64,000 nt of DNA from Luteolibacter yonseiensis. Its GTDB lineage: Bacteria > Verrucomicrobiota > Verrucomicrobiia > Verrucomicrobiales > Akkermansiaceae. The notes under the pieces are model-generated. The model was not told the DNA's origin. It saw only the letters and a list, made by a program, of their open reading frames with translations, and did no database searches. The stretch is from NCBI RefSeq assembly GCF_016595465.1, contig NZ_JAENIK010000004.1, positions 496,001 through 560,000 of the forward strand, written 5' to 3'. This document shows, piece by piece, positions 48,915-49,402 of this stretch (position 1 is the first letter of the stretch; every line of letters begins with the position of its first letter). The position numbers were made by a program, and so were the translations under genes.

Positions 48915-48923
48915 GGGAAGAAG

Positions 48924-48958
48924 GATTGGGGATCTTGGATTGTAGATCGTGGATGAAA
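48924..48958. repeat. Left heptamer array flanking the four-helix-bundle gene
   Basis: Five consecutive 7-nt units, each starting with GAT on the plus strand: GATTGGG, GATCTTG, GATTGTA, GATCGTG, GATGAAA. It lies in the 52-bp gap between pheT and the four-helix-bundle gene. An inverted copy with five units flanks the other side of that gene. Confidence 0.9.
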
Positions 48959-48978
48959 GAGGATGATCAGCGATCCTC
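48959..48978. other. Hairpin over the four-helix-bundle stop codon
   Basis: GAGGAT (48959-48964) and ATCCTC (48973-48978) are perfect inverse complements around 8 nt that include the stop codon, next to the left heptamer array. It could be part of the element's RNA structure. Confidence 0.5.
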
Positions 48979-49359
48979 GTTATGGTGGGTTTCCACACCA
49001 CGTGTGAAGAGATAAATGGATTTGGAGAGCTGAGTGAGACGTTCGTGCAAGGATGCGAAGAGATCGAGGTCGCTCAATGATTCCGTTTCGCGGAGTGTTT
49101 CGAGATGGTCGATGGTTTCCAGCGCGGAGGCATAGGAAAAATCCAAAAAACGGATATATTCCGCTTTGTAACGGCGGCGGCCGTAACCTTCGACGATGTT
49201 GGATTTGATCGATTTCACGCTGCGGCGGATCTGCGATCCTTCTTCATACATTTCGAACTTGGGCAATGCGGTGAGAGTCATGCGGTGAATTTCAATCACT
49301 AGTTCACGGGATTGTTCCCAGATCCGAAGCTTTTTGTAGCCGAACGATGTCGCATCCAT
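48967..49359 (-). CDS. Four-helix-bundle protein (S23/IVS-type)
   Basis: A 130-residue protein of the four-helix-bundle family (TIGR02436-like), first described as encoded in 23S rRNA intervening sequences. Signature elements: FGYKKLRIWEQSRELVIEIHRMT, QIRRSVKSIKSNIVEGYGRRRYKAEYIRFLDFSYASALETIDHLE and a final amphipathic helix. It lies between pheS and pheT on the same strand, with 43- and 52-bp gaps that are almost filled by inverted arrays of GAT-heptamers. This fits an IVS-like unit inserted in the operon. The fold is well known; the biochemical role is not. Confidence 0.88.
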   Translation of the reverse strand: MDATSFGYKKLRIWEQSRELVIEIHRMTLTALPKFEMYEEGSQIRRSVKSIKSNIVEGYGRRRYKAEYIRFLDFSYASALETIDHLETLRETESLSDLDLFASLHERLTQLSKSIYLFTRGVETHHNEDR

Positions 49360-49363
49360 AGTC

Positions 49364-49398
49364 TTTCATCTACGATCTTCCATCTACAATCCACGATC
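49364..49398. repeat. Right heptamer array, inverted copy
   Basis: Five 7-nt units that on the minus strand read GATCGTG, GATTGTA, GATGGAA, GATCGTA, GATGAAA. They are the inverted counterpart of the array at 48924-48958; read toward the gene, both arrays end in GATGAAA. In the pheS-pheT transcript the two arms can pair with each other. Confidence 0.9.
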
Positions 49399-49402
49399 CA
49401 TG

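Follow-up and report, generated by a model that had tools for sequence, protein, structure and literature searches.

A four-helix-bundle gene between inverted heptamer arrays in a pheS-pheT operon: evidence for a discrete, likely mobile unit

INTRODUCTION

In Luteolibacter yonseiensis, a small gene is lodged between pheS and pheT, and the short gaps on either side of it are almost filled by tandem 7-nt repeats that are inverted relative to each other. Is this a gene that happens to lie among repeats, an RNA element whose arms pair in the transcript, or a discrete unit with ends of its own? An earlier reading of the sequence alone (the original prediction) had proposed a self-structured or mobile unit whose arms can pair in the mRNA. 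We followed this up in the 64,000-nt window that holds the locus (contig NZ_JAENIK010000004.1, positions 496,001 to 560,000) and in other genomes and plasmids.

RESULTS

The gene and its arms in the pheS-pheT operon

The cargo gene (48967..49359, minus strand) encodes a 130-amino-acid four-helix-bundle (FHB) protein of the PF05635/TIGR02436 (S23/IVP) family, as assigned from profile matches and structure. It is on the same strand as both host genes, pheS upstream (49403..50419, minus strand; PF01409 and PF02912) and pheT downstream (46536..48914, minus strand; PF03483, PF17759, PF03147, PF01588, and PF03484). Its PF05635 score is 87.9 bits against a cut-off of 33.8, and TIGR02436 also matches. 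An inverted-repeat search found the longest pair at 48923-48965 and 49357-49399, with 43 nt at 77% complementarity. In the sense of the cargo, the 5' arm (49357..49399, minus strand) holds five GAT heptamers at 49364-49398 (GATCGTG, GATTGTA, GATGGAA, GATCGTA, and GATGAAA on the minus strand). The 3' arm (48923..48965, plus strand) is its inverted copy and holds five at 48924-48958 (GATTGGG, GATCTTG, GATTGTA, GATCGTG, and GATGAAA on the plus strand). With its outer edges taken as those of the inverted repeat, the whole unit spans about 477 nt (48923..49399, minus strand). The gene position and the two inverted five-GAT arrays had been predicted at exactly these coordinates.

The arm score at this locus is 22, whereas 3,000 randomly drawn window pairs with this geometry reach at most 18 and 2,000 shuffles at most 15; these controls and the ordinary-gene control below rule out chance or artefact as the source of the arms. 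Within the window, the two arms are the only matches to the five-GAT pattern. Genome-wide there are 145 (overlapping matches; 4 for a reversed-pattern control), which means that heptamer arrays of the GAT type are also found on their own in the genome. Stand-alone direct arrays of 10 to 17 units lie at G000:C1:59208-59323, C1:140012-140084, C5:59303-59373, C5:84332-84430, and C5:87037-87160 (L028, L328, L323, L326). No FHB gene was recognized alongside these arrays, several of which begin within about 12 nt past the stop of an ORF, and it is possible that they are relics or expansions of single arms. At G000:C5:6104-6213 (L324), a GATTCAA array of 5 units adjoins a GATGTTC array of 11 units.

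The AlphaFold2 model of the FHB protein is a confident four-helix bundle (pLDDT 93.1), and the nearest solved structures found with it in Foldseek were 2gsc (TMq 0.83) and 2rld (TMq 0.75), which contain five chains each. Passages of PMC4990558 describe the structure of a Xanthomonas S23 protein as a homopentamer. The match to Avd (4dwl; TMq 0.60, E-value 0.29) was far weaker. No Rfam match was found in 45000-54000, and the FHB gene is the only ORF of at least 70 amino acids wholly within the unit, so the unit encodes no recombinase.

Inverted arms are the rule around FHB genes

Our survey took in 200 distinct FHB genes, drawn from the own genome, family, and phylum and from a scan of named genomes (the best 80 of 516 confirmed stretches), after setting aside 15 FHB rows (9 duplicates, 3 at contig edges, and 3 too short). 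We called a gene armed when its inverted flank score was at least 16. Inverted arms were present at 162 of the 200 FHB genes, compared with 2 of 131 ordinary genes; the remaining 38 FHB genes scored under the threshold. Cross-locus pairs gave 6%, shuffles 0/600, and flank matches in direct orientation at the same threshold 22/200. Grouped by site, the FHB genes fall into 86 clusters, 69 of which include an armed gene. The best arm period was 7 or 14 nt in 141 of the 162 armed units, and it exceeded shuffles in 161; the repeat unit itself differs between loci, with a weak common core of n-A-G-T-n-n-n (2.48 bits versus about 1.65 in controls). Selection for the heptamer units within one genome to differ had no detectable effect (permutation p 0.13, 63 units).

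The own genome alone has six PF05635 matches, five of them above the cut-off, and all six have inverted flank scores of at least 22. Their units, judged by eye, are GTTGATG (L005), NNNNTTA (L007), GAACATC-type (L008), GATNNAT-like (L009), and GAT at pheS-pheT. The weak match, L010, which the profile missed in the arm survey, has a 9-nt unit by eye and also scores 20 in direct orientation. Within the best 80 of 516 stretches, 68 of 76 FHB genes were armed; by groups assigned from names, these included Verrucomicrobiota 45/52, Desulfobacterota-like 12/13, Bacteroidota 4/4, and Planctomycetota 3/3. On cyanobacterial plasmids, where 20 records had a match, all of the first 8 FHB genes retrieved were armed. 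A further 21 FHB genes from three genomes outside the 200 (L359-L378) included 14 with an arm score of at least 16.

The FHB protein is under purifying selection (median dN/dS 0.10 over 84 non-independent pairs). No near-identical copies within a genome were found among the FHB genes retrieved, the best such pair having 63% identity among the 24 genomes with a value (of 25 with at least two FHB genes), and the three genomes of L359-L378 had no within-genome pair at 55% identity or above. Most pairs with at least 70% identity share a site (162/198), which implies that moves are rare and that inheritance is mainly vertical or allelic. A phage search with one FHB query gave no match.

A second cargo has arms of a different period

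Arms of this kind also enclose an unrelated gene. In the PDDEXK_3 (GxxExxY) nuclease family, 44 of 55 genes were armed, after one row at a contig edge was set aside, compared with 0/165 in shuffles; 6/55 had direct-orientation flank matches at the threshold used for FHB genes. The best arm period was 8 to 10 nt in 40 of the 44 and beat shuffles in 33. At pheS-pheT itself, a PDDEXK_3 gene with its own inverted arms replaces the FHB gene in five relatives; these five genes are open frames, two of which were run against Pfam and both confirmed. Arm grammar therefore changes with the cargo within a single host site as well. Across the genes compared here, the arm period follows the cargo, at 7 nt for FHB and 8 to 10 nt for the GxxExxY nuclease.

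Turnover at pheS-pheT and other host sites

To describe the history of the site, we took the 30 best-scoring pheS loci from the 113 genomes with a match, 27 of which could be read across the gap. Four gaps held an FHB gene, 5 a nuclease gene, 4 a gene-less hairpin (judged by eye), and 10 other sequence, while 4 were gaps of 21-27 nt; a fifth pheS-pheT FHB gene was found in G027 (L163). These states interleave on the pheS tree, and sister species differ. The FHB gene of G000 is sister to the hairpin of G111 (support 88/87), that of G013 to a gap with none in G053 (100/99), and the nuclease of G101 adjoins the FHB gene of G093 (98/87). The five pheS-pheT FHB proteins come from three genera and are 65-85% identical to one another but at most 48% identical to others among the best matches listed. 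From these sequences, we read the pheS-pheT FHB genes as an old site-bound lineage with frequent loss and replacement. Comparing pheS-pheT loci with and without the unit, as the original prediction had suggested, produced empty gaps, and exact insertion edges came only from the plasmid relatives described below.

Several gaps hold other contents. In another species (L056), the gap contains a 159-amino-acid Imm50 immunity-like ORF (28.1 bits, cut-off 27.1). The gap of L047, sister of the FHB-bearing L048, has by eye FHB-type heptamers on the left, a PDDEXK_3-type arm on the right, and no gene, and these arrays possibly descend from two different units that once occupied this gap. In L051, L053, L054, and L057, inspection by eye shows one array each, roughly 30 nt long and of CACGGA or ACGAAT type, that resembles one PDDEXK_3-type arm left behind.

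At livG-livF, where arms were judged by eye in 20 loci, 4 had an armed FHB gene (including L342, where the sequence stops before the second arm), 7 an FHB gene with none or shortened arms, and 9 gaps of 11-55 nt. Here the gene seems to outlive its arms. The original prediction expected arms to accompany the gene in relatives and repeats to be tied to it. The first expectation fails in part, at these 7 of 20 loci, and the second holds with a reservation: arrays do occur elsewhere, but the linkage to FHB genes far exceeds that to ordinary genes, and empty sites exist.

Units tend to lie in the sense of their surroundings. With neighbors taken from naive ORF calls and 14 FHB and 5 PDDEXK_3 genes that had no two near neighbors set aside, both neighbors were on the same strand as the cargo for 107 of 150 armed FHB genes (8 had both opposite) and 30 of 41 armed PDDEXK_3 genes, compared with 19 of 43 control genes. 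In L319, L320, L321, and L322, between two and five gaps of one operon are taken up by FHB and PDDEXK_3 genes, all in sense, and 9 of these 13 genes are armed; the operon looks like nuo, a name based on protein sizes and order. An armed FHB unit also lies between cas6 and cas4 in L386 (Anabaena 90 pANA02), where the surrounding CRISPR operon is type I-D, and in L383 (Pseudanabaena pPg_01).

Filled, empty, and second sites in cyanobacterial plasmids

Closely related Nostoc plasmids differ by the presence of the unit. A 417-nt unit occurs in L394 and L395 and is missing at the same spot in L380, L391, and L397, which are 92-94% identical to them outside the insert. The empty junction (L380) reads GGTTCTAG-GTTATG, and the filled junction (L394) reads GGTTCTA-[AATCAGG...GGATT]-CTAG-TTATG. 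With regard to a target-site duplication, the loci vary: CTA lies on both sides in L394, and the repeat is imperfect in L395 and the other pairs. Four more filled loci (L385, L384, L380, and L382), compared with relatives at 90-95% identity, have insertions of this type in or close to a stop-start junction. The unit edges coincide exactly with the repeat ends in L394 and L395 and are looser elsewhere, with short losses or additions. L400, at 89% identity to L382, has arm-like repeats and no FHB gene.

The L395 unit recurs at unrelated sites in L385 and in L392/L401, with 81-86% identity over 393-433 nt, while the flanks across these sites are near the shuffled level (0.63-0.75, with one left flank at 0.78, versus 0.72). 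The right edge is identical in five of five cross-site comparisons; at the left edge, two alignments overrun the arm by 11-23 nt and one (L401) begins inside it. It is in plasmid relatives only, then, that sequence comparison establishes sharp edges together with empty and second sites. Modular heptamer ends around a gene outside rRNA had been predicted, and the empty and second sites of these plasmid relatives uphold the idea of a discrete unit.

The two arms change together

The two arms match each other in register. Arm identity was 0.853 in register and 0.615/0.602 one unit off for FHB units (n = 159), and 0.872 versus 0.426/0.391 for PDDEXK_3 units (n = 44); this dependence on register rules out mere sets of binding sites as a full account of the arms. 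Comparing same-site orthologues among all 200 FHB genes in non-independent pairs, we found that at 40-55% protein identity the arm score was 17.0 within units and 8.8 between species, with the within-unit score higher in 374 of 398 pairs. The same held for 357 of 426 pairs at 55-65%, 114 of 162 at 65-75%, and 49 of 84 at 75-85%. At 85% identity and above, this was so in only 4 of 30 pairs and arms resembled each other more between species than within a unit, as expected for recent splits. Arms therefore diverge between species yet stay alike within a unit, which means that both arms change together. A small test on 17 pairs gave 9 double (compensatory) changes where about 1.1 were expected. 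Even across sites, arm-unit similarity tracks protein similarity (Mantel r 0.25; 0/500 permutations).

Mismatches in the arms do not point to RNA pairing

The sense RNA of the unit is predicted to fold with its arms paired (z -3.58), in agreement with the original prediction that they can pair in the mRNA, and the antisense does likewise (z -3.41). Selection for a stem in the sense mRNA predicts more G-U than A-C mismatches, and the opposite was found: on the sense strand, A-C outnumbered G-U by 226 to 154 in FHB and by 74 to 39 in PDDEXK_3 units. Among same-site FHB clusters, 39 showed an A-C excess and 13 a G-U excess (p 0.0004). The antisense stem was the more stable in 89 FHB units versus 59 for the sense stem, and in 31 versus 11 PDDEXK_3 units. 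RNA pairing is therefore probably not what keeps the arms; a version of the original prediction in which mRNA pairing maintains them is not supported. We take the pattern to mean that the arms are kept or copied as DNA and that a stem in the sense strand is mildly avoided. A bolder reading would place the pairing in an antisense single strand, and a mutational asymmetry could conceivably lie behind the A-C excess.

DISCUSSION

A proposal for the unit and its alternatives

As the more probable reading, we propose that the cargo gene and the inverted arrays on its two sides are one discrete unit, likely mobile, whose arms we predict to be ends recognized by its own ring-forming protein. Support for a mobile unit comes from the empty sites, the unrelated second sites, and the in-register arms that change together. 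In such a unit, the pentameric FHB protein would bind 7-nt-spaced sites on paired or juxtaposed arms and would protect or present the unit ends, and joining could be carried out by a recombinase, a polymerase, or a host repair pathway acting in trans. The unit sits in gaps mostly between co-directed genes, and transcription running on from the host operon might express its cargo. Old copies seem to lose their arms, to lose their gene, or to shrink to one array.

Other explanations account for parts of these data. The arms could be kept by pairing in a polycistronic mRNA from which RNase III cuts out the gene, as in an intervening sequence (IVS). The predicted sense fold, the in-register arms, and the prevalence of armed units with both neighbors on the same strand suit this idea, as does a precedent in parts of PMC4990558, where the Coxiella 23S rRNA IVS, of the same size class, carries an S23 gene between complementary ends and is a substrate of RNase III. 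It is possible on the modeled fold, but the A-C mismatches and the stabler antisense stems run against it, and we regard it as unlikely. Units in sense orientation with wobble pairs falling in the antisense strand could also reflect copying through RNA, in which a trans-acting reverse transcriptase would make an antisense cDNA hairpin that is inserted into operon gaps; the FHB fold does resemble Avd, an accessory protein of DGRs, if only weakly (a likeness pointed out in portions of PMC10053308). The A-C excess may instead come from slight selection that disfavors a stable stem in the sense mRNA. We find copying through RNA improbable.

We give just as little credence to a non-mobile operon gene with regulatory hairpins of its own, whose protein binds the arms as RNA or DNA and tunes the operon. 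Its low dN/dS and its long persistence at pheS-pheT across three genera would fit such a role, but one unit at unrelated sites with a common edge, the empty sites, and nuclease units at the same site do not. Stand-alone tandem heptamers that flank the gene by accident are hardly credible. GAT arrays do lie elsewhere in the genome with no FHB gene, but as a sole account this is refuted by the arms at 162 of 200 FHB genes versus 2 of 131 ordinary genes, by their colinear register, and by a period that follows the cargo. Our preferred reading remains a discrete, likely mobile unit.

A possible class of mobile elements

More tentatively, and at a confidence that stops short of calling it probable, these units may belong to a class of mobile elements found across bacteria. 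Its members would be parcels that lack a recombinase and have inverted micro-repeat arms specific to their cargo; they would sit in sense in operon gaps, have both arms rewritten together, and include the 23S rRNA IVS as a special case. The same tentative reading would give the class an arm grammar of 7 nt for a pentameric S23/Avd-like protein and 8 to 10 nt for a GxxExxY nuclease. If the class is real, it would explain why S23/IVP and GxxExxY proteins are met next to CRISPR and other operons of which they are not a part. These two common families of unknown role would be cargo of one kind of element, and both would gain a testable role in binding their own arms. Some of the short heptamer repeats in bacterial genomes might stem from such arms, and the origin of 23S rRNA intervening sequences would become directly testable. 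Similar armed parcels are found in several phyla, which makes it likely that a widespread type of mobile element carries these little-studied proteins.

Such units would also be a warning for guilt-by-association surveys, for example of CRISPR-linked genes. A figure legend in one large survey of this type names the 23S rRNA IVP domain (PMC10910872). The armed FHB units between cas6 and cas4 may bear on the CRISPR association of the FHB family in such surveys.

Comparison with known systems

In a literature search that covered mostly titles and the openings of abstracts, with few subscription papers, no inverted repeat arms around PF05635 or GxxExxY genes were described. The closest relative by protein family is the 23S rRNA IVS of Coxiella and Leptospira, which shares with our unit the complementary ends and patchy presence. 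According to parts of PMC4990558, the Coxiella IVS is 428 nt long, carries an S23 gene between complementary ends, is excised by RNase III, and is patchily present; its length is comparable to that of the L395 unit and of the somewhat longer unit at pheS-pheT. The FHB units, whose arms are built of 7-nt units, differ in lying in protein operons, here between pheS and pheT and not in 23S rRNA, and in that pairing in the sense RNA is not favored. Since the 23S rRNA location is lacking, we do not count the unit among the IVS, although its mode of action may be similar.

The likeness to the DGR protein Avd is that of a four-helix bundle with the weak structural match given above, and the genes next to our unit are pheS and pheT. 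Free-standing homing endonuclease genes are small nuclease genes in the gaps of conserved operons; they are not known to have arms of this kind. They are comparable to the PDDEXK_3 units, whereas the FHB unit has no nuclease. Cyanobacterial STRR are 7-nt tandem units in intergenic gaps, and FHB arms resemble both these and the TAACTGA repeats in being 7-nt tandem units between genes. The TAACTGA heptamers, as described in parts of PMC4679880, form direct arrays of one unit with one inverted case, whereas FHB arms are inverted, locus-specific, and enclose a gene.

Judged as an inverted-repeat mobile element, the unit has terminal inverted repeats at its own locus, as do most of the FHB and PDDEXK_3 genes surveyed, while filled and empty sites with edges at the repeats, and second sites, come from plasmid relatives only; no recombinase frame lies within it. 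MITE-type and other transposase-less short inverted-repeat elements are short, have inverted ends, carry no recombinase, leave empty sites, and have gene-less derivatives, all of which can be said of the FHB unit. It differs from them in carrying a conserved gene under selection and in having ends that are element-specific tandem arrays changing together.
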